Part shown: in pieces, positions 6,555 to 64,000 of the stretch
Layout: each line of letters starts with the position of its first letter
How positions within the stretch are numbered: the first letter of the stretch is position 1
Origin: Lineus longissimus
Lineage: Eukaryota; Nemertea; Pilidiophora; Heteronemertea; Lineidae
Direction: 5' to 3'
Assembly: GCF_910592395.1 (NCBI RefSeq)
Contig: NC_088323.1
Coordinates: 10,401,501 to 10,465,500 of the forward strand
Length of the DNA stretch: 64,000 bases
Program-made: the position numbers and the translations under genes
Notes under the pieces: model-generated
Seen by the model: only the letters and a program-made list of their open reading frames with translations
Told to the model about the DNA's origin: nothing
The model's database searches: none

Positions 6555-8721
6555 AAAATCAGATAAATCGCTACGTATTTGTTTAGATCCGAAAGATTTA
6601 AACACTGCTGTGAAACGGGAGCATTTTCCATTGATCACATTGGATGAAATTAGCACTAAACTCGCTGGGGCGAAGTACTTTACTGTTCTTGACGCGTCCA
6701 ATGGATTCTGGCAACAAAAGTTGGATACGGAAAGTTCTATGCTCACAACATTCAACACATGTTTTGGGAGATATTGCTTTCTCCGTCTTCCGTTCGGAAT
6801 CTCCTCGAGTGCTGAAGTGTTTAATAAAGCAGTGACGCAAATTCTGGAAAATTTGGAGGGAGTCATCAGCTACATCGACGATTTGTTAGTCTGGGGACGC
6901 ACGAAAGAGGAACACGACGAGCGACTTAGGAAAGTATTGGATCGCCTACGGGAGAAGGGGTTAAAGCTCAATAGACGCAAATGCAGAGTTGGACTCTCAG
7001 AGGTTGTTTACATAGGAGGATTACTAAGTGCAGATGGGGTCAAACCGGACCCGCAGAAAGTGCAAGCAATCGTGGATATGCCTCAACCAGATTGCAAGGC
7101 CGCATTACGCAGATTTCTAGGACTAGTAACATACTTTGGAAAGTATTTGCCGAACTTGTCAGACATTACGTCACCGCTCAGGCAGCTTCTTCCAGAAGAT
7201 GCTGAGTGGGCTTGGCTGAAACAGCAGTCCGATGCTGTAGCGCAATTAAAAACAATGTTGACAACAGCACCAACGCTGAAATTCTATGATGTAACAAAAC
7301 CAGTGACATTGACAGTTGATGCATCTCAGAAAGGACTAGGTGGCACCATTTTGCAAGATGGGGCACCGATAGCTTATGCATCAAGGGCATTAACGCCAAC
7401 CGAACAGCGTTATGCCCAGATTGAAAAAGAAACATTAGCAGTTGTGTTTGGGTGCGAGCGTTTCCACCAATTCTTATATGCGCGGAATTTTGACGTCGAA
7501 TCAGATCACAAACCACTTGAGTCAATTCTTAAGAAACAATTTGGGCAGACACCGCCCAGAATTCAGAGATTTCTACTGAGGTTGCAAAAGTACACTTTCA
7601 ACTTGCGTTTTGTGCCTGGTAAGGAAATGTATGTAGCTGACGCGTTAAGTCGAGCATACTTGAAGGACTCAGATCATGATAATGAACTCTCACAGGAAGC
7701 CCAATTACAAGTTCATGCGCTAGTGTCTAGCTTACCAATAACCGCAGGAAAAGCTGATGAGCTAAAACGTGAAATACAAACTGACTCTGAATTGCAGACA
7801 TTGTATAAAACTATAGAATCAGGTTGGCCGGAAAATTGTTCTGAAGTTCCAGATGTCGTGAAACCATACTGGAACTGTCGCGATGAACTATACATTACTG
7901 AAGGATACATATTCAAAGGACACAAAATTGTGATTCCGCCATCAATGCGCAAAGACATGCTGCAAAAAGTGCATGAGGGACATCTAGGAATAGAAATGTG
8001 TCGAAGACGTGCGCGGGAGGTCATATATTGGCCAGGACTAAATAGTCAAATCGCTGAAATAGTCTCAAAATGCACAACATGTCAGAAACATTGCAATAAA
8101 CAGCAAAAGGAACCGCTCATGTCGCATCCCATACCGCAAAGGCCGTGGCAAAACATATCTAGTGATCTATGTGTGGTCTATGGGAAGGACTACTTAGTGA
8201 TAGTTGATGCGTACTCAGGCTATTTCGAGATAGCACTGCTTGAGGACACTACAAGTGAAACCATAATCAAACATTGTAAATCTATATTTGCGCGCCATGG
8301 AATACCTGACGAATTCTTCACAGACAATGGTTCTAATCTAGTTAGCCGGAACTTTCAAGCTTTCGCAAAAGCATGGGAATTTAAGCTGGTGACATCATCA
8401 CCAAGATTCCCACAATCAAATGGACTAGTTGAAAAAGCTGTGCAGACCGTCAAGAAAATTCTCAAGAGAAGCTTCTCCACAGGAGAAGACCCGTATCTAG
8501 GACTTTTAGCATACAGGAGTACACCACGTGAAGCAGACATGGCATCGCCTGCCAAGTTGCTTATGGGTAGAAACCTGCGCACGAGGTTGCCAACGGCAAC
8601 TTCACAACTCCTACCAGCGGATGCAGTCAAAGTTCAGCAGCAGATACAAACGCGACGGGATACGGCAAAGGCATTCTTTGATGGGAAGTCTAGAGCACTC
8701 AAACCTAAACCCCGGCGATAA
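6555..8721 (+). pseudogene. pol: Gypsy Pol, 3' part: reverse transcriptase, RNase H, integrase
   Basis: Pol resumes straight after the insert. The RT active site YIDD is at 6871-6882. A Ty3/Gypsy RNase H domain follows (about 7300-7660, with DASQKGLGG and the SDHKPLE strand). Next come the HHCC zinc-binding integrase N-terminus (about 7970-8090; GHLG, C..C) and the DDE catalytic core (D near 8164-8205, DNGSN near 8321, E near 8431). The order RT-RNaseH-IN defines Ty3/Gypsy; a Mag/SURL-like clade is possible. The frame ends early at 8721, while the C-terminal integrase tail continues in another frame. The gene is therefore broken twice: by the insert and by a small frameshift near 8690-8715. 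Confidence 0.9.
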
Positions 8722-52650: not shown

Positions 52651-54330
52651 TATGTTTCAAATATGCATGCCGTGCTATGGTTTGTCATTGAACAAACATT
52701 GATGAGGTCTCTTAAAAGCACAGGAGGTCTTACTCGTGGCAGTGGGATGACTGAGGACATGCGCAATCTATGGACATTGTCTGCACCCGTGACTTCAGAG
52801 TACAACAGTGCGATGCAGGATTTCACCGACCTGACTTACACTACAAGTCCGCAACACAAAGACTCCACTGAAGCGCGAATCAAAAGAGATACATCTGATC
52901 TTGAGAAAATTCGATTGAAGCTTGCTGCCTGCTCACCGTTCACTTCAGATCCTACTCTGAGGAATATCGTCAATGGGATCGTAGCTGGTCAAGATGTGAA
53001 TGTACATGACTTTGAATCAGTTGGGAACAAGATAATAGAGGATATGATCGGAAAATCGGCATTCGCCTACAAATTCAAGCGAAAGGACCGAGCCAAAACC
53101 CTTGGGAATATCTCTGCCGTGAAGATTGCCGCTGATCGCACAATTGATCCTGCTCTCCTTTTCCAACGTTTCCTTGTTGTGTCGAGGTCAGGAGATCTTT
53201 CCCAGGATGAGGTTTTGAGTTATGAACTGAGCCCCTTCCCTCCAGCCCTCTTTGAGACAAGGAACATTCTTCGAAAAGCAGACAAACCGCAACTTGCACA
53301 GGCAATTCGAGACCATGTGACAGGCTTATCAAGTGAGGCGGTCCTGTACCCTGTACCTGAAACAGATTGTTACGTGTTGGATGGTGGTTCGTTGCTGCAC
53401 CTTGTACCGTGGATGAGAGGACAAACATATGGTCAGATAGCAGACTCCTATGCAGACTTCGTGGTGAGACACTACGGTCAAGCGACAGTTGTCTTTGATG
53501 GTTATGGCGAAGGGCCATCTATAAAGGACAATACACATCAAAGACGGGGGAAAAACACGCACCCTCTGTTTAACTTCACGGCAGAAACAGAGTTTTCCGG
53601 GAAAAAGGAGGATTTCCTGTCCCGTGACAAAAACAAGGCAGGGATGATTGGACTCATCAGCACGGCACTTGCTAAACGAGGGTGCCACATCATTCAGTCG
53701 CCAGGGGATGCGGACGTTGATATCGTCAAGGCTGCTGTTGATCGTTCGCGCACTTGTACCACAACTTTGGTTGGTGAAGATACAGATTTGCTAATCCTAC
53801 TGCTACACTATGCTAGAACAGACAATCAGACGATTTATTTCCGTTCCGACGCAAACAAGCAGTCAAAGGACCACAAGGACAAAGTCTATAACATCAACCT
53901 CTTGAAAGAAACCCTAGGAGATGATGCGTGCAATGAGCTGCTCTTTCTTCATGCCTACACAGGTTGTGATTCAACATCTAGGATCTTTGGCATAGGCAAA
54001 AAGTCAGCCTTCCAGAAATTAGTGAAACCTGATCCTGTCATGAAGTCCTGCGCTAGCACATTTATTCATCCAAATAAATCTCCGGAGGAAATATCCGAAC
54101 AAGGCCAAGACCTGATGGTTAATCTCTTTGGCGGAAAGTCTAAGGACACGCTATCATCGCTGCGCCATATCATTTTCACCAAGAAAGTTGCAACCGCTAA
54201 AGCATTTGTCACCCCAGAAAGACTTCCCCCAACTTCTCCAGCCACACGATACCATAGCCTACGTGTTTACTACCAAGTCATGGTGTGGATGGGTATGGAA
54301 AACGAACTGAATCCTAGGGATAGGGGATAA
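52651..54330 (+). pseudogene. FEN/PIN-like nuclease gene, 5' part before LINE insertion
   Basis: The open frame (ATG 52663) starts with VIEQTLMRSLKSTGGLTRG, typical of the middle of a large invertebrate protein family, so the true N-terminus lies upstream or is lost. The nuclease part has spaced acidic motifs like FEN1/XPG proteins: VLDGGSLL, VVFDGYG (about 53489), GDADVD (about 53704), GEDTDLLILLLHY (about 53773), then HAYTGCDSTSRIFGIGKK (about 53950) with a helix-hairpin-helix-like end. Metal-dependent cleavage of flap or branched DNA is the family role; for this protein it is inference. The frame ends at 54330 where the LINE tail begins, and the remaining C-terminus is at 57131-57367. Confidence 0.7.
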
Positions 54331-54379: not shown

Positions 54380-55804
54380 TCAAAGCGCTTGATAGGCCTC
54401 TTTAAAAAGCAAATGTTTCAGTTGTCCCTTGAAAGATAACAGAGAGCTGCAGTTCCTAACAGTTGAAGGAAGTTTGTTCCACAGCTGAGGAGCTCCAATT
54501 GAAAATGCTCTACCACCGACTGACATGACATTGGCCTTTGGGATAGACAGAAGAACGGCCGATGAAGAGCGCAGAGTTCGAGAAACGGTATGAACGGAGA
54601 GAAGTTCTGAAAGGTATTGGGGAGCAAGTTGGTGAAGACACTTGTAAGTAAGAAGGAGAACCTTGTACTTGATGCGCTGTTGCACAGGAAGCCAATGTAG
54701 AGACCTGAGTACTGGGGAAATGGAAGATCGTTTCTTGGTCTTGGTAATTAGGCGAGCGGCAGAATTTTGTACCTTCTGTAGGGGTATAATTGTTGAATTG
54801 GGACAACCAAGGAAAAGGGAATTACAGAAATCCAGGCGAGATATTACAAGAGCCTGGACATATAACCTGGTGGTATTTGGAGTTAGATATTTTCTGATTT
54901 TCCCGATGTTACGAATGTGAAAATTGGTGGCCCGTACACATGTGTTAATGTGTTCTTTGAAATTGAAATCACGGTCCAAGATCACACCCAAATCTCTTGC
55001 AGAAACAGAAGAATATACATTTGCATCAATGATACGGATGGCGGGGAGATTAATAGTGCTGCTGAACCTGCGGGAACAGATTAGCAGAATCTCGGTCTTG
55101 TCGCCATTACAGCTAAGAAAGTTGTCGACCAACCAGAGATTTAAATCGTGGACAGCATTAGAGATCTTGGAGCAGGTGGTACTAATCTCAGTTATAGTGA
55201 AGGCCACATACAATTGACTGTCATCAGCATATAAGTGGTACATAATGGCATGCTTACGGATGATTCCACCCACTGGGGTAGTGTAGACAGTAAAAAGTAC
55301 TGGTCCCAGTATAGAACCCTGGGGAACACCGAACTTGATAGGACTAGGTCTTGACAATTTGCCGTCAATGCATACCTCTTGTGATCTGTTATCAAGATAA
55401 GACGAAACCCATGCCAGTGCTGTGCCAGTAACACCCATAGCAGCAAGTCTCTGAAGTAGTCTGGAATGGTCCACAGTGTCAAATGCGGCGCTCATATCGA
55501 GTAATACAAGGAGTACACACTTCTTTTCATCAAGTGCATGAATTATGTCATTGTGTACTCGCAATAGTGCCGTTTCAACACTGTGAAGTGGTTTGTAAGC
55601 AGATTGAAACTTGTCAAGAGCACCGTTTTCAGCAATATGGCTTGATAACTGATTGCAAACCACCCTCTCCAAAACCTTTGAAAGGAAGGACAGGTTAGAG
55701 ACAGGCCTGTAGTTTTTGAGTGTGTCAGCATCTAAGGATGGCTTCTTAATCAAGGGATTAAGAATAGCTCGTTTGAAAGAGCTTGGCACCATGCCACTTT
55801 CCAA
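54380..55804 (-). pseudogene. LINE ORF2: reverse transcriptase
   Basis: 474 residues. Motifs are [64 protein letters not shown] and the catalytic LYADDSQLY, followed by a thumb region with [20 protein letters not shown]. This set is characteristic of the CR1/L2 group. It is displaced by one base from the endonuclease frame (about 55785-55800) and is otherwise uninterrupted. Confidence 0.9.
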
Positions 55805-57128
55805 TGACTATCTTGACAATCAGGCGCATAATGTCTCCTGGTAGGCACTTCCTAAGCAAAGATGTTGGGAGTGGGTCTAATGCACACTGTATTGGTTTCA
55901 TGTCACTAATGAGTTTGAGTAGCCCGTGTTCAGTTACAGGCTTAAATACATCAAGGTATGAAGTCAGTGAATAATGTTCATCTAATGATTCATTCGAAAC
56001 TGACGCTGGAAACTTGTCTCTGATGAGTTGCACCTTCTCACTGAAAAATGAACTGAACCGTTCAGCAAGTTCAGAAGAACACTCATGACTAGGCAGAGTA
56101 ACAGACCCCCTTCCATACAGAAGTGATTTAACAGTCTTGAAAGTCTCTGTAGTTGGTGAATTGAGAAGACGAGCTGAAAAATGTTCCACCTTGGCAGCTT
56201 CGATCATTTTGTCAACATTACGAGCTTGACTCTTCCATACCTGCCGATCAACGGTGAGTTTACTCCGGCGGTATTTTCTCTCGAGCTTGCGCTCCAGCTT
56301 CCTGGCAAGAATGATATCATCGTTGAACCAGGGGACGTTGGGTCGCACATGCACAAGTTTCGACTTGGCAGGTGCATGCTTGTCTAGAAGGGAAGCAAGC
56401 AATCGATCATAGCTATCAACGAGTGACTCGAGATCGGAAGACAAATCTAAGCCTTGAACACCATCAGAAACATCAGAAGCAAAAGATTTGATGTCAATTG
56501 ATTTGACCTTCCGGTATCTAATAGTTTTAACAGGCAATGGCGGCTTGGCCATGTTGACCGTGAACGACACTGCATAGTGATCGGAGATGCTGGCATCTGA
56601 TACATGAATGTTGGACACAGATGCATCACCGACCCTTGAAATAACAGCATCTAACAAGTGGCCCTTGTCATGGGTTGATTTGTCAACGTGCTGTAGAAGA
56701 TGATGATGTGCAAGAATGTCAGTGAATCTCAACGTGTCTGGGTGGTCAGTTTTTTCAAGATGAAAGTTAAAGTCTCCAGTGAGAATCAACTTGTCATGTG
56801 GCGTCTTTAAGGATATAACACTAATTAACGTATCGAACTCCTCAAAGAAAATTCCACGGTTTGAGTCGGCACTTGGTCCTTTCTCCGGCCTATAAACCAA
56901 GAGAAGCGAATACACACGAGTGTTCCAAGTAATCCTTGCTTGAAGACATTCAAAACTTTTCGGCCACGACACGGATTTCACAGTGCATTCCAGAGATGAC
57001 CTGAACATTATACCAACTCCGCCTCCTCGTCTCCCAGGCCGTGGAACATGTCTAAAAGTATATCCATCAATGTTAATGGCAGCAACTGAAGCCGTATCAG
57101 TATTGGTAAGCCATGTTTCTGTTATCAA
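55758..57128 (-). pseudogene. LINE ORF2: apurinic-like endonuclease
   Basis: The frame (456 residues) opens at ITETWLT, which is the E-x-W-L region of an APE-type endonuclease. The very N-terminus is missing. It contains RGGGVGIMFRSS, LTGDFNFH (catalytic Asp/Asn) and SDHYAVSFTV (catalytic Asp-His), then a linker region toward reverse transcriptase. It runs out of frame at about 55790. Confidence 0.85.
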
Positions 57129-57953: not shown

Positions 57954-60823
57954 TGTATATTGACCCGACTACCTTCCCTAGTCAAGGGTGTTTTGACTTC
58001 CACAGGACGTCGACCCTTGTGCAAGAAGTTGTTAGGGCCGGTAAAAAAATTAACATAGGCAGTGTATCGCCTTGCGATGACTTAGAGAAATGCAAGTGCG
58101 GTAAGGTTATTAAACGGTTTGATATTGACAATCCCCACATTTGCGGGGAAAAATGGTGCAAGCTCTGCGAGCGCATGACGGAGCCGGGGCACAGGTGTTA
58201 TATGCAGCCGGCGAATGGTGCTGATCTGTCGGTTGAGCAAAGGCTCATTATTTTGCTTGAAAAGCGGCTTAGGGATGGTACAGTCGGTGATGATGTTGAA
58301 GATATTCATCACCAACTTGAAGAATTATATCTTGCTGTAGAGCGAGAGGCAGAAGAAGAAGAGAAGTCTGAGAAGAAGTAGAAAAAAAAGTCATGCTATG
58401 TATTGTTTGATTACGAAGCTATGTTCGACGATAGCGGTAAGCATGTGCCTAATCTGATTGTGGCTCACAGCGTTTGCAAGAAATGTTTTTCAAAAAAAGA
58501 CTTTTGTAAAAAGGGTGAGTGCAAACAACATGTGTTCAGAGGAGAGAAGTGTAATGACGATTTTTGCGAATGGTTGTTAAATAAATCGGGGGTTGCGATT
58601 TGTCATAACTTTAAAGGTTACGACAGTTATTTCATTCTCGACTATCTGCACCAAAATGCCTATGCACCCACTTTTTTCCCAATGGCCCTCAGGAAGCTTC
58701 CCGATGCCTTTGGCATCGTTGAGGCGCGCAAGGGTTATTTTCCATTTCTATTTAATACGCCCGCGAACCAGGAGTACACGGGACCGTACCCCGCCCTTGA
58801 GTACTACGACCCTGGTGGAATGCAACCGAAGGATCGTGAAGCTTTCCTGCGCTGGTATGAAAACCATAAAGACGGCCATTTCGATCTTCAGGAGGAGCTT
58901 CTTTCCTACTGCATATCCGATGTGGAAGTGCTAAGAAGGGCTTGCGGTAAATTTAGGAATTTATTTCTAACAGTTACAGGCAATGGCAAGCTGGAGGCCG
59001 GGATCGACCCTTTCAAAACTTGTCTGACGATCGCCTCCGCCTGCAACCTGGTGTACAGGTCGAATTTCCTGCAGGAGGAAGCAATCGCCATAATCCCGCT
59101 GCAAGGATATGCGCCGAAGGATAAGTGTTCGGTTAAGGCCATTAAATGGCTGAAATGGGTAAGTCACTCGCGCGGTGTTGCTATCCAGCATGCACGGAAC
59201 GGCGGTGAGAAATCCATTGGTCGGTTAAAAGTTGACGGCTTTGCCGGTAACACGGTGTTTGAATTTTATGGATGTCTATTCCACGGGTGTGAACGGTGTT
59301 TTCGGTTCCGGCAGCTGGTTTCCCCTTTTGTGGATATGACGATGTACGAGTTGAAGATGCGTACCGTCGAGCGTGAGGAGGAGTTGGCAAAACGCGGTTT
59401 CCAGTTGGAAACAATTTGGGAGTGTGAATACGAGCGCCAGCTAAAAACAAATCCTGAAATGGCCGAGTACATTTCAAAGTTAGATATTGTCGACCCGCTG
59501 GAGCCCCGCGACGCGTTTTACGGAGGTCGGACAAATGCGGCACGTCTCTATTATGAGGCAGGTGTTGGTGAAAGTGTTAAGTATGTGGACGTGTGCTCAC
59601 CTTATCCGTGGGTAAACAAATACTGTAAGTACCCCACTGGTCATCCGGAAATACTCACGGATAATTTGAGTACAGATGTTTCAAAATATGAAGGTTTGAT
59701 GAAGTGCGTTGTGTTACCACCGCGTTACTTATTTCACCCTGTCTTACCCTACAGAAGCAATGGTAAATTACTGTTCCCTCTGTGTAGCACCTGCGCTGAC
59801 ACCCTTCAGCAGGCCGAGTGCAACCACTCGGCTGAGGAGCGTGCCCTTCACGGGACGTGGGTTTCAGTGGAGTTGCACAAAGCTATTGAAATGGGTTATG
59901 TGGTGGTGGCTGTGCACGAAGTCTGGCACTTCAAAAAGACCTCCACAACCCTTTTTAAGGAGTACATCAATACGTTTTTGCAGCTGAAGCAGCAGGCCTC
60001 GGACTGGCCCCGCGGCTGCGCCTCTGAGGAGGCCCGCCAGGAATATTTGCGAAATTATGAGGAGCATGAAGGGATCGCCCTTGATCCTAAGGCCATTGAA
60101 CACAACCCGGGGATGCGGTCATTAGCGAAGACAATGCTTAACGGATTTTGGGGAAAACTGGGTCAGCGCTCTAACCTTGGGCAGACAATCTACGTGAAAG
60201 ACCCGGATGTACTCATAAATTTGCTCCTGGACCCCGCATCCCGAATAAGCGATGTGTATTTTGTAAATAATGAAATGGTCAGGGTTCAGTACACCACCAT
60301 GGATGCCTTCGTTGAGCCGCTGAAAACTGCCAACATTGCTATAGCCTGCTACACCACTGCGCATGCGCGGCTGAAATTATTTAGCATCCTAGAACCGCTA
60401 GGTGATAGAGTACTCTATTATGATACGGATAGTTGCATATATATTCACCGAGAGGATCAGTGGAACCCTGAATGTGGTCGTTATCTAGGCGATCTCACCG
60501 ATGAATTGGATGGGGATAGCATTAATATATTTGTTTCTGGGGGCCCCAAGAACTATGCATATAAAACGGTTCAAGGTAAGTTATCCTGCAAGGTGAAAGG
60601 GTTTACACTGAGCCATGCCGCGTCTCAGAAAGTCAATTTCCGCAGCATGGCTGACATGGTCAAAACAGCATCGACAGAGAGGGTGGGGATCACATACCCC
60701 AATAAAATTATTAAGAACAAAGATGGCACAATATGTTCAGTCGAACAAACAAAGCACTACAGGCTTGTGTATAACAAGCGAAGGCTTATTGAAGACTACA
60801 GGACGCTGCCATATGGGTATTGA
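57954..60823 (+). pseudogene. Protein-primed family B DNA polymerase (Polinton/adintovirus-like)
   Basis: Zinc-binding N-terminal motifs (CKCGKVIKRF, CGEKWCKLC, GHRCYMQP at about 58090-58210) come before the exonuclease domain. ExoI FDYEA is at about 58406, ExoII NFKGYDSYF at about 58610, ExoIII YCISDVEVLRR at about 58909. The polymerase domain has motif A DVCSPYPW (about 59590), motif B KTMLNGFWGKLGQR (60127) and motif C YYDTDS (about 60418). This is the DNA_pol_B_2 type used for protein-primed replication by Polintons, adintoviruses and bidnaviruses. A TAG at 58379-58381, beside an A-run, interrupts the frame just before ExoI, so the copy is probably inactive. The 5' end is lost in a repeat near 57954. 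The catalytic region is otherwise open to TGA at 60821-60823. Confidence 0.88.
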
Positions 60824-61043
60824 TAAATAAGTGAGTAAGTAAGTAAATTCATTTCCCCACTCACCTGTTGATCATATTTTATTGTGTGATCCTTCAATGG
60901 CTCATCTTTACCTGTTGCTCATGTTTTATTTTGAAACATCATGAACTACGCTTTTATCCTCCAGGTTTTGTTTTTTTATCCTCCATTGTTTTATTCCGTG
61001 ATTTATTTAACAACCACTCGCAGAAATCATCCATTCTTTCACT

Positions 61044-61565
61044 ATGCTTCAGCCTGTGAACATTGTTCTCACTGCAAAATTAAATTATGAATTCAATTTG
61101 GCAACTTTGGCCACCACTATGTCGAATATTGTGTATAATCCACGCGTATTTAGTGCTGCGATATTGAAATCTAGAAAGATTTCCTCAACTTGTCTTTTAT
61201 TTAGAAATGGTAATGTGGTTTGTTGTGGTGCCAGGACCGAAGTCATGGCCCGCCGATCTGTACGCAAGTGGGGTAGAATGATTCAGAAATTGGGTCACAA
61301 GGTCAGACTGAGTCATGTAAAGTTGCAAACTATGACTCTCACCTATAGCATCGGTCGTCGAATTAGTCTAATTGATTTCTGTGCTTTGCAAGAATGTGTG
61401 TCATATGAACAAGAAATATTTCCGGCTGCAATGGTAAAAATGTGTAATATGAATTTTGCCATTTTTGGCAGCGGTAAGGTGATCATAAGCGGTGTCAAAG
61501 TTATAAAAGATGCGGAAAGCACTTTTTTACCTATCCTTTTGAATATGCAATTATCTGGTGTATGA
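61044..61565 (+). CDS. TATA-box-binding-protein (TBP) homologue in a virus-like cluster
   Basis: 173 residues, nearly the whole being the two-repeat TBP saddle. Repeat 1 has NIVYNPRVFSAAILKSRK, TCLLFRNGNVVCCGARTE and RKWGRMIQKLGHKV. Repeat 2 has SYEQEIFPAAMVKMCN and FAIFGSGKVIISGVKV. These align in order with the conserved TBP segments (YNP-R-F-A, F-x-x-G-x-x-V-C-x-G-A, Y-E-x-E-x-F-P, F-x-S-G-K-V). It is very divergent from cellular TBP, has no N-terminal extension and is uninterrupted. It starts 220 bp after the polymerase stop, and its own TGA abuts the ATG of the integrase. TBP binds the promoter TATA element; a role in transcription of the element's own genes is inference. Confidence 0.82.
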   Translation: MLQPVNIVLTAKLNYEFNLATLATTMSNIVYNPRVFSAAILKSRKISSTCLLFRNGNVVCCGARTEVMARRSVRKWGRMIQKLGHKVRLSHVKLQTMTLTYSIGRRISLIDFCALQECVSYEQEIFPAAMVKMCNMNFAIFGSGKVIISGVKVIKDAESTFLPILLNMQLSGV

Positions 61566-61715
61566 ATGTTTAACAGCCTTGAGTCAATGGAGGCTGTGTT
61601 GAAAAGCATTTATTATGACTCTTCGCACCCTGCAGGTTTTGGGAGTGTGCAGAAACTTTACAACGCCGTAAAGCATCGGGGTATAACTATATCGAATGTA
61701 AAGAAGTGGTTAAAA
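61566..61715 (+). pseudogene. N-terminal fragment of a Polinton-type integrase
   Basis: ATG 61566 is immediately after the TBP stop. The reading KSIYYDSSHPAGFGSVQKLY, then ISNVKKWLKQ, matches the conserved segment that precedes the zinc-binding part of Polinton/retroviral-like integrases (Y-Y-x-P-x-H-P-x-x-F-G-S-V, W-L). Coding sequence stops at 61716, where a repeat starting CAAGAGGTCCAAGG begins. The DDE catalytic core is not in the window. Confidence 0.65.
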
Positions 61716-61770
61716 CAAGAGGTCCAAGGTCCTGGCCCTCAGCTGGATGACCTAATAACATAGGACTGAG
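61716..61770 (+). mobile_element. Left end of the CAAGAGGYCC dispersed repeat
   Basis: CAAGAGGTCCAAGGTCCTGG followed by CCCTCAGCTG matches the left end at 2067 (CAAGAGGCCCAAGGGCCTGG, CGCTCAGCTG). The right end of this copy is not clear; a degenerate GGTGAGCTGAGCACATAAAA at about 62771 may be it. Confidence 0.6.
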
Positions 61771-64000
61771 GGTATAAAGTAGTAAATATCGGCTTTATAC
61801 TACTGTTTGAAGTTCAAGAGAACACGTTATACCACTAAAATTTCCAATGCAGAGCTGCCAGCTGGATGAAATATGATTGAACTAATCAGCCATGGTATGT
61901 AAATATTACAGGAGGCAACGGAAGATATCCCTAGTTTAGTATGTTGTATCGGTAGCTTTACAGAAAAGAAGTGTCAGAGAGGATGAGACTTCTCCATGGA
62001 CAACTGTGGTATGTCCAGGCTGGGTTGTACAGCACAAGGATACAAAATGCTGTCTGTAATTGAGAGGTATCCTGATTTAACAGAGATCAAAATAAATAGA
62101 AATTACCAGTTTGGGACTAACACCACGGTCTTTTTTTTTAATAGGGTAGAGATTACAGGAGTCAACAAAATTAATTTTATTGAGAGAAATTGACCTGTCC
62201 TGCAGGTGATTGGAATTTACAATACAAATGGTCGTTTTTCATGACATTGTGCTCTACTGCATATCCCTAGTGAGTCGATCTGGAACCAATCTATCCTTGG
62301 CGCAGACAGGTTCAAATTGGCTATATCTTAAATAGATTGAATTGCGATGAAAATCTAATGCAATAAAGGAGCAATATCGAAGAGACAAATTAATCAAACC
62401 AATTGTCCACAGACTCGGACCCTGAAATGGCGTGATGTATGCGTGCATATAAAAGTATATCAATTGGTTCGATAAAGATGATGAGGCAATGTCAATATGC
62501 CTTGTTCCTTCAGCAATATGCCCCTTCTTATACGGAGAAGAAGGAGAACCCAGATAGGCCTTCACATGTCGGCTTCCAAATGGCTCGAACCAACTGTACT
62601 ATCACTACTATAAATTTAAAATGCGTGCTCCTCCTACATGTAGCAATGTCTCGGCCAAAAAGGCACTTAGTCGACAGGCAAGTTAGAAGTTCAGCACCGT
62701 GAGCAGCTCCTTGGTAAGGCCATGTCAGGTTCCGCGCGCCTCTTCAGATACATCAAGTATTGAAAGCTGTGGTGAGCTGAGCACATAAAAAGACCATGGT
62801 CACCTTAATTTGAAAATCCCTTCATAATCAAGGGCTACCTCTGACTAAAACAGCACAATAGACCACCAATTTGACCCCAGCTCCTAACTGCGGGAAAACC
62901 CAAGTCCAGCAACCAAAAGTACCAAAAATACATTTTTGTTTACATTTCATTTGAACTGCACACATGCGTTTGTTTACAATTTCATTTCCCGTGAAATCCC
63001 GAAAATCAGGTGACCTGCAATCGTGGATTGAAAATAACATTAACCTGGGTTCAGCAGGTCAGCAGGTATACCGGCTGTTCCAATCATCCCCCTACAGCCA
63101 GCTGTTCAAAAGGTAATGTTATTCACCCAACAGGGAGTGCAGGTAATTGATTAAGCCCCTGCATAACTTAACAGCAACGCCAATGGCTTGGCTTCTGGTA
63201 AGGAGAATTGACAGTTTTTTTATGTGAGTAACATTATTGTGTTGCTTAAAACGTCTACTTTTTACTCATGTAAGAATCGTAGTACTAATAATAACTTCAA
63301 CTTATTTTCCGGTTATGATAACACAACACGCATCTTCATGATCATGATCTTTCTCAAACAAACCGAATGACCTAATCGCCTTGGACGCACAACCTAACCA
63401 CAAATCAATCCGCCCCGACGATCGACACATCCATTCCATTCGAGAAAACTCAATAAAGTTTGATAAATAAACCAGAACTGAGATTTCACAGGAGCACCTG
63501 TGAATTCATGACTCCAGGATTGTTTTGAGGGCGATATCGTAAGAGTTGGTCTTGAGTATGGGGACCTGTGAAGGTCCGTGTGAGGCACCTGGGGAGAGAA
63601 GACTAGTTGAACGATGGGATCTGACGCGGACACTACTATTGATCTCATTATATGAATACCATTTAATTACAAACAAGTGAAAACAGATCATATCATATTC
63701 CTTGGCATAAATTAAAATAGGAGTGCGGGAACAAGGTTTTTTAGCAGGAGGAAAGCGAGAACAGTTTGCGCCGTCGTATTCCGATTTGACTGGTTAGTGG
63801 TGAAATCTGCTTTTAATTCTGCAAATTAACATATTCGTTTTACTAGTTCTAGCGTTGTCTGAATTAAAGATGCTTTCCCAATGCTTGACTGGTCTGGCAA
63901 GAGGCATTGCCAGGAAAACGTGACGTCATTTTGGCCATTCTTCTTACCGCACGCCCTCCCTCTCCGTAAAACTTCCTGACATGGTGTGAAGTGGGAGGGC
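61771..64000. other. Stretch without a recognised gene
   Basis: I read both strands and found no domain, tRNA or clear repeat ends. It may contain the rest of the repeat inserted in the integrase and flanking genomic DNA. The remaining integrase and capsid genes of a Polinton were looked for and not found. Confidence 0.4.

Follow-up and report, generated by a model that had tools for sequence, protein, structure and literature searches.

Background

The closest described systems to the locus analysed here are the Polintons, or Mavericks, taken together with the adintoviruses; with these the Lineus longissimus elements share a family B DNA polymerase (PolB), a retroviral-type (rve) integrase, an adenovirus-type protease, a packaging ATPase and long terminal inverted repeats. 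To this set the TBP-bearing Lineus elements add a gene encoding TBP and, in two types, a gene encoding a PC4-domain protein as well. Promoter recognition in eukaryotes centres on TBP, whose paralogues TLF/TRF2 and insect TRF1 are thought to serve separate promoter classes. Viral TBPs as such are already known, and the virus-encoded TBP fold is common to the Lineus protein and to those of giant viruses (Nucleocytoviricota) and mirusviruses, both of which are far larger than Polintons. A TBP has been reported in mirusviruses (PMC10132985) and a TBP accompanied by TFIIB in giant viruses (PMC12085832, PMC11464507), and the virus-encoded TBPs met in the literature searched belong to these two groups; for a giant algal virus that encodes no RNA polymerase, the authors state that TBP and TFIIB redirect host Pol II (PMC12085832). 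No report of a TBP in Polintons was found in the literature searched, and the occurrence of this gene in such small elements appears to be new.

Results

PolB, TBP and the start of an integrase form a single row on the plus strand, within positions 57971-61721 of the window, the whole 64,000-nucleotide stretch of L. longissimus DNA that was analysed (Table 1). The original prediction had described this row as a virus-like cluster. It does belong to a Polinton-type provirus lineage, but the copy in the window is best described, from its sequence, as a decayed Polinton/Maverick fragment, with a truncated PolB and a split integrase. The predicted polymerase is recovered, with 97% identity over 717 residues to that of an uninterrupted copy on another chromosome (the C12 copy). 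The match to the C12 copy starts only at 57971, so that neither the 5' terminal repeat nor the beginning of PolB is preserved in the window; an in-frame stop closes the N-terminal remains of PolB upstream of the main open frame, which, compared with the C12 copy, lacks about 66 bp in frame near 58670. The stop codon of TBP (TGA, 61563-61565) abuts the start codon of the integrase (ATG, 61566), as it also does in the C12 copy; this contact had been taken as a viral sign, but alone it is weak evidence of a virus. The integrase start predicted after TBP is confirmed by its match to the C12 frame, but the gene is interrupted by an insertion. The 65-aa integrase piece in the window has by itself no Pfam match at E <= 0.01, and the remainder of the gene lies some 9.2 kb downstream, beyond the window, where its C-terminal part matches rve (E 1.3e-12). 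The insertion contains a 1,017-aa open frame (ORF L009:3922-6972) without Pfam match. The packaging ATPase and the terminal ends are missing from the window's own copy.

Table 1. Features of the Polinton-type locus and its insertion (window positions)
Feature	Position	Strand	Remarks
PolB N-terminal remains	57971..58381	+	97.6% nucleotide identity with C12 copy over 57971-58672; same frame as main PolB ORF
Main PolB open frame	58403..60823	+	Pfam DNA_pol_B_2 E 2.1e-36; protein-primed viral type, family B
Virus-type TBP	61044..61565 (coding 61044-61562 + stop)	+	173 aa, two repeats, uninterrupted; Pfam TBP
Integrase, first 52 codons	61566..61721	+	92% identical to uninterrupted C12 integrase frame (Pfam rve E 2.9e-12)
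Insertion splitting integrase, ~9.2 kb	61722..64000, continuing past window to about C16:10472460	.	C12 integrase matches stop at 61721-61722 and resume at L009:9461

The PolB-TBP-integrase order of the window recurs in the C12 copy, which spans about 17.35 kb, and protease, ATPase and capsid-like genes, for which a search beyond the window had been suggested, are found there, downstream of the row. The terminal inverted repeats of this copy (2,679 bp, or 2.68 kb) are 100% identical, and it is flanked on both sides by AGAAT, a 5-bp target-site duplication; the length known for Polintons is 6 bp. Its PolB is of the protein-primed type by family match (Pfam DNA_pol_B_2, E 2.8e-45), and its retroviral-type integrase ends in a chromodomain-like tail (Chromo E 3.9e-5, narrowly below the family threshold). 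The protease is an adenovirus-type cysteine protease (Peptidase_C5, 31.7 bits for a cut-off of 21.3), and the packaging ATPase matches both Adeno_IVa2 (24.4 bits, above the cut-off of 21) and Pox_A32 (23.7 bits, above that of 22.8). Two frames of 448 and 285 aa occupy places fitting the double jelly-roll major capsid protein and the penton protein; neither has a Pfam match at E <= 0.1, and the former has no PDB sequence match at E <= 1.

The two-repeat TBP homologue proposed for the window is upheld by highly significant similarity: the Pfam TBP family matches in two stretches (E 7.4e-29) and the best PDB sequence match is human TBP (E 1.3e-25). The AlphaFold2 model of the protein (mean pLDDT 96.9) matches TBP crystal structures, the best being 1qn3 (TM 0.94, rmsd 1.6). 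Human and plant TBP structures head the PDB structure list with 30-36% identity, whereas the giant-virus models in the top 20 BFVD matches reach 10-18%; at E <= 0.001 the BFVD comparison yields 43 viral models in all. The window protein is, by family match and predicted structure, a two-repeat TBP with the saddle fold. Introns, which had been named as an argument for a host gene, are absent: virus-type TBP frames are intron-free, the one in the window being single and unbroken, and the host TBP lies elsewhere in the genome, in several exons.

Polinton genes adjoin all nine virus-type TBP loci of the genome (one of them by way of its 99.8-99.9% identity to another). This agrees with the suggestion that the lineage carries its own TBP, and it establishes that the PolB-TBP-integrase arrangement is not due to chance. 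Three divergent Polinton types, as well as metagenomic contigs, contain related TBPs, and PC4-domain proteins adjoin the virus-type TBPs of two other TBP-bearing Polinton types; none of 14 queries detects a Polinton neighbour of the PC4 at C20:9.19 Mb in the 5.5 kb examined. The 23 loci of another Polinton (PolB) type in the same genome all lack a TBP within 30 kb, and so Polintons in general can do without this gene. The TBP frames bear apparent signs of purifying selection, with a rough dN/dS of 0.087 (about 0.09) between the window TBP and the TBP at C12:8.56 Mb, a comparison in which dS is near saturation and the second copy has a stop codon.

In phylogenetic trees, the window TBP falls, among the matches listed, with 142 compact TBPs, mostly unnamed metagenomic proteins and some bivalve ones, apart from 73 cellular TBPs. 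The protein sample consisted of the best 120 of 341 and the best 120 of 205, amounting to 210 different proteins. The compact/cellular split is supported at 100/100 in both careful trees (46 and 47 rows), and in the quick ones by SH-aLRT values of 99 (125 rows) and 98 (215 rows); these trees are unrooted, leave out archaeal TBPs and contain no giant-virus TBPs by name. Rows were defined as viral or compact by their side of the split in an earlier tree. The 90 proteins new in the second listing, which had been retrieved by a profile built on the first, were assigned to the compact side before the later tree confirmed it, which makes this a check rather than a fully independent test. Among compact TBPs, location in Polintons is shown for the Lineus types alone.

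As to the TBP paralogues, for which a tree had been suggested, insect TRF is placed with the cellular TBPs and so is the host TLF in the best tree (96/92), the latter retaining the Asn of repeat 2, whereas the viral TBPs stand apart from host TBP and insect TRF; a grouping of TLF with the viral TBPs is not rejected (p-AU 0.256). Neither is the window type rejected when held on the cellular side (p-AU 0.351), and the C16:8.7-Mb type adjoins that side at 95/89. A tree that joins the viral TBP to host and human TBP is rejected (p-AU 1e-4), which refutes a recent capture of the host gene; ultimately, the viral TBP is likely to go back to an ancient capture from a eukaryote. No relative was retrieved from IMG/VR, whether the query was the TBP or the PolB of the window or one of three TBP alignments, nor from phage records by tblastn.

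Residues are numbered here after human TBP, with the roles that we take them to have, and the alignments bear on the letters alone; the hallmarks of TBP are presumably four intercalating phenylalanines and paired minor-groove asparagines. The viral TBP has in common with cellular eukaryotic TBP, a TFIID subunit, the two-repeat saddle, N163, V165, F210, F284 and the presumed TFIIB contact E282, but it is only about 170 aa long, without N-terminal extension, belongs to a separate tree group and carries replacements at N253 and V255. Among the matches listed, position 253 is T in 139/142 compact rows and N in 72/73 cellular ones, and position 255 is S or T in 141/142 compact rows and V or I in all 73 cellular ones. 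Among the same matches, the presumed TFIIB contacts are kept in most compact rows (E282 in 141/142; E280 in 124/142, with D in 12 more), as are R231 (138/142) and R235 (141/142) of the basic convex helix. The window TBP retains the four phenylalanines, N163 (the first Asn) and V216, its second Asn is changed to Thr, and its position 218 is C, not N. In the compact group T218 is often replaced by N and E187 by R. Since position 218 varies in this way, one related virus type is without two of the four phenylalanines and His stands at F301 in 54 of the 142 compact rows listed, function may differ across the group.

Discussion

We consider it probable, if by no means certain, that the TBP encoded by this Polinton lineage, of which the window holds a decayed copy, serves the virus as a promoter-recognition factor of its own, through which host TFIIB and Pol II are recruited, a function and a DNA target that we infer. 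The viral TBP would sit as a saddle on viral promoters, where its conserved phenylalanines would bend DNA and its conserved C-terminal stirrup would recruit host TFIIB and RNA polymerase II. Because repeat 2 has exchanged its minor-groove residues (T for human N253, S or T for V255), it would prefer a different DNA element, and the loss of the presumed TFIIA-contact glutamate E187 would render it less dependent on host TFIIA; the virus would thus have a promoter class to itself. The presence of TBP together with a PC4-domain protein in two further Polinton types fits a small transcription-initiation module. In the C12 copy, motif enrichment upstream of genes was not detected (5- to 8-mers, P 0.69-1.0) and an ordinary TATAAAAG lies about 65 bases upstream of 2/10 genes; hence the altered specificity is without support from these promoters.

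The same conservation of TFIIB-contact glutamates and basic convex helix, in combination with an altered DNA face and the loss of intercalating phenylalanines in some members, might also be expected of a decoy or host shut-off factor that, instead of directing viral transcription, would compete for the partners of TBP, TFIIB among them, and depress transcription in the host. This we regard as rather unlikely, for the window type keeps all four phenylalanines and N163, and the changes on the DNA face are specific replacements common to the group, not random loss. It appears quite improbable, too, that the viral TBP is a partner of the integrase, bending DNA or choosing targets, by analogy with the Ty3 retrotransposon and its use of TFIIIB. 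TBP does lie directly upstream of the integrase in 6/9 loci, spanning two gene orders, and the touching codons of the window and C12 copies point in the same direction, but the C4 type has TBP upstream of PolB instead, the integrase is already provided with its chromodomain-like tail, no tRNA gene was found in 11/11 loci examined (ARAGORN, bacterial settings) and TBP-less Polintons insert as well. Finally, that a captured or domesticated worm TBP merely chances to lie in a Polinton is hardly credible, despite a single uninterrupted frame that is intact inside an otherwise decayed fragment: the tree test speaks against placing it beside host and human TBP, relatives are present in divergent Polinton types and metagenomic contigs, and the window gene differs from the C12 copy (98% identical in protein) by only 5/519 bases, so that its intactness needs no host selection.

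Beyond the private promoter-recognition factor proposed for this lineage, we put forward more tentatively, as a possibility somewhat short of probable, that the Polintons, as an entire family of small DNA viruses of animals, possess a rewired TBP that defines a core-promoter class of their own and assembles, with host TFIIB and RNA polymerase II, a hybrid pre-initiation complex, to which some lineages would add a viral PC4; the compact TBPs of bivalves and metagenomes would then constitute a wider, unnoticed record. That Polintons of about 17 kb contain a TBP, and that positions presumed to contact bases are changed throughout the group, suggests that small viruses supply the first step of transcription themselves instead of borrowing it, and small Polinton viruses may thus mark their own gene starts. 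More than 100 TBPs with altered DNA faces also provide a natural series, in which what fixes the DNA choice of TBP becomes directly testable. Some bivalve genes named TBP may likewise be viral in origin, for instance the Crassostrea virginica 'TATA-box-binding protein 2-like' (P0134).

A TBP gene in Polintons of Lineus longissimus

The row of genes for a DNA polymerase B (PolB), a TATA-binding protein (TBP) and an integrase start that the original prediction placed on one strand of the window is borne out by Pfam matches and coordinates (see table), down to the touching stop and start codons of the last two genes, and the similarity to TBP is significant in the profile check. A search of the genome (391,118,348 bases, 30 contigs), in which the window spans C16:10401501-10465500, recovered the same gene order in a Polinton of about 17.35 kb on contig C12 (C12:14795479-14812828; the C12 copy). 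The 2.68-kb terminal inverted repeats of this copy are 100% identical and AGAAT flanks it on both sides, which points to a recent insertion. Its frames run from PolB (1,316 aa, stop to stop) through TBP, integrase (Pfam rve, 2.9e-12), a penton-like protein (285 aa), a basic protein (143 aa), a capsid-sized protein (448 aa), a protease (Peptidase_C5, 31.7 bits) and an ATPase (IVa2/A32-type, 24.4 bits) to proteins of 121 and 250 aa. Of the capsid, ATPase and protease genes sought beyond the 64 kb, the latter two are matched in the C12 copy. The capsid-sized and penton-like proteins are named by place and size only; neither has a Pfam match, and the former, alone searched of the two, has no sequence match in the PDB.

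The window copy is decayed. Its similarity to the C12 copy starts abruptly at 57971, so it lacks the terminal repeat as well as the N-terminus of PolB, and relative to that copy its PolB carries an in-frame stop and has lost about 66 bp. An insertion of about 9.2 kb breaks the integrase behind codon 52, and the gene restarts near C16:10472461; further downstream, the penton-like gene has a broken frame, a stop lies within the capsid-like gene, and the ATPase-bearing stretch of the C12 copy is absent. The TBP frame is intact and, because it differs from the C12 TBP at only 5 of 519 bases, this is uninformative on host use.

Features of the window and of stretches at other TBP loci (L numbers are single genome stretches with their own numbering; L009 runs past the window end)
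Feature	Position	Strand	Evidence or remark
PolB	window 58403-60823	same as TBP and integrase start	Pfam DNA_pol_B_2, 2.1e-36
TBP, 173 aa	window 61044-61565	same as PolB	Pfam TBP, 7.4e-29, two stretches
Integrase start	window 61566-61721	same as PolB and TBP	ATG touches TBP stop codon
Insertion splitting integrase	window 61722 to about C16:10472460		1,017-aa open frame (L009:3922-6972), no Pfam match at E <= 0.01
Non-LTR retrotransposon, just upstream of Polinton fragment	window 54380-57128	-	RVT_1, E 1.1e-32; endonuclease, E 1.9e-6
555-aa open frame	window 52663-54330	+	no Pfam match at E <= 1
Weak similarity to Polinton integrase	window 8194-8508		25%, E 2.5e-5; perhaps LTR-retrotransposon integrase
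PC4-domain (p15 coactivator) protein, C4:10.76 Mb	L015:118-1125	-	E 7.7e-24, two stretches
PC4-domain (p15 coactivator) protein, C16:8.71 Mb	L016:7030-7518	-	E 3.1e-8
dUTPase near C4 virus-type TBP	L014:5336-6034	-	Pfam, E 2.1e-22; between two PolB pieces

Distribution of TBP loci across the genome

Manual grouping of the 21 TBP-profile matches in the genome yields 11 TBP places: the host TBP on C3, whose two main exon pieces share 86% and 97% identity with human TBP; a gene resembling the TBP-like factor (TLF) at C4:0.67 Mb; and nine virus-type loci, in the window and at C12:14.80, C12:8.56, C12:13.48, C16:12.04, C2:13.92, C4:10.76, C16:8.71 and C16:9.05 Mb. Polinton genes adjoin all nine, C16:9.05 Mb being assigned by its identity to C16:8.71 Mb. 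Three TBP-bearing Polinton types can be distinguished. TBP pieces of the window type are 60-98% identical to the C12 TBP; the C4 type has a TBP 55% identical to it, adjoined by a PC4-domain protein and with a dUTPase nearby; and the C16:8.7-Mb type combines a TBP of 35% identity with a PC4-domain protein. The integrase (INT), or its remnant, lies directly downstream of TBP at six of the nine loci; at C16:12.04 and C12:13.48 Mb the stretch from TBP to the following gene gave no integrase match, and the C4 locus has its TBP upstream of PolB. Gene order in the C16:8.7-Mb type is ATPase-p121-p250-TBP-INT (partial)-penton-PC4, and in a TBP-less type (C8:12.36 Mb) it is PolB-ATPase-p121-p250-INT.

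PolB has 98 matches in the genome, 28 of them with at least 500 bits, and TBP lies at most 30 kb away from three of these 28. None was found within 30 kb of the 23 loci among them with 44-48% identity, nor within 30 kb of two window-type PolB remnants on C6. Further PC4 matches occur at C20:9.19 Mb and C12:3.00 Mb. The C16:8.71 and 9.05 Mb loci (L016/L017 and L018/L019) each occupy a stretch of nearly 20 kb; the two stretches lie about 336 kb from each other and are 99.8-99.9% identical except for a gap at around 7.2 kb in L016. Either the segment was duplicated or the assembly contains an artefact here.

A wider family of compact TBPs

As sole query against 5.8 billion proteins, the window TBP retrieved two relatives with identities of 64% and 55%, whose contigs measure 14.8 and 5.4 kb. 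Profile searches with cut-offs of E <= 1e-10 and E <= 1e-15 returned 341 and 205 proteins, of which the best 120 per search were used. Among the matches listed, compact TBPs are nearly all unnamed, the named ones all coming from bivalves (Pinctada imbricata P0031, Mytilus edulis P0056, Crassostrea virginica P0134), and clusters reach 91 members (P0190, 84; P0208, 91), sizes that would be consistent with mobile elements present in many copies. All trees were unrooted. Compact TBPs split from 73 cellular-side rows with SH-aLRT 99 in a 125-row tree (52 compact TBPs) and 98 in a 215-row tree (142 compact TBPs among the matches listed), and two careful trees, with 46 and 47 rows, gave the split 100/100. 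A tree joining the window type to the TBPs of host and human was rejected (p-AU 1e-4); placing this type on the cellular side of the other compact TBPs (p-AU 0.351), or TLF with the compact group (p-AU 0.256), was not.

Residues (human numbering) were counted in the 142 compact rows, drawn from the best 120 of 341 and best 120 of 205 proteins, and in the 73 cellular rows. Among the matches listed, compact TBPs retain N163 (135/142), F210 (138/142), F284 (139/142) and E282 (141/142), the last of which we take to be a TFIIB contact, with E (124) or D (12) at position 280. In these same listed matches, N253 is replaced by T in 139/142 (N in 72/73 cellular rows), V255 by S or T in 141/142 (V or I in 73/73), T218 by N in 113/142 and E187, presumably a TFIIA contact, mostly by R (86/142; E in 70/73 cellular rows). 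Position 193 is F in 118/142, and position 301 is F in 79/142 and H in 54/142. The pattern was noticed first in 52 proteins and later in 89 of the 90 newly found among the matches listed. At E187 and T218 the window TBP carries V and C, and it retains all four of the phenylalanines presumed to intercalate, two of which are lost in the C16:8.7-Mb type. Its AlphaFold model (pLDDT 96.9, 42-row alignment) matches TBP crystal structures (1qn3: TM 0.94, rmsd 1.6, 30% identity), and giant-virus TBPs match its fold more weakly, at 10-18% identity in the top 20.

Comparison of the window TBP with that at C12:8.56 Mb gives dN 0.125 and dS 1.44, a ratio of 0.087 that is rough because dS is near saturation and the latter copy carries a stop codon; decay would raise the ratio. 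The two synonymous and three non-synonymous changes relative to C12:14.80 Mb are too few to judge selection.

Proposed role of the viral TBP

A full-text search (polinton, adintovirus, Maverick, virophage; TFIID; Lineus) returned no report of TBP in Polintons, in a corpus that mostly excludes subscription journals, where an earlier mention is possible. TATA and TBP are absent from the searched passages of PMC11071296, PMC11071308 and PMC10120064; in those of PMC11640650 and PMC12220804 'TATA' is confined to a primer and an author name, and in those of PMC7786948 a TATA or TBP term is confined to a reference. Passages from other papers report a TBP in mirusviruses (PMC10132985), in an alga's virus-derived elements, which are presumed to come from mirusviruses (PMC10675990), in a megavirus (PMC11464507), in CpV-BQ1 (PMC12085832) and in Yellowstone Lake algal viruses (PMC4602308).

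We infer that the viral TBP, a Polinton-linked gene product with a TBP-like predicted fold, low dN/dS and altered residues, would bind viral promoters, bend their DNA and recruit TFIIB and host Pol II, and that it might prefer a sequence other than TATAAA. Two observations on the C12 copy count against such an altered preference: no shared motif is enriched upstream of its genes (P 0.69-1.0), and an ordinary TATAAAAG lies at about -65 of two of its ten genes. The protein may possibly serve instead as a decoy or as a helper of the integrase. For a role in viral transcription, a close mechanistic precedent is the giant algal virus CpV-BQ1, for which the authors of PMC12085832 propose a redirection of host Pol II by the TBP and TFIIB of the virus.
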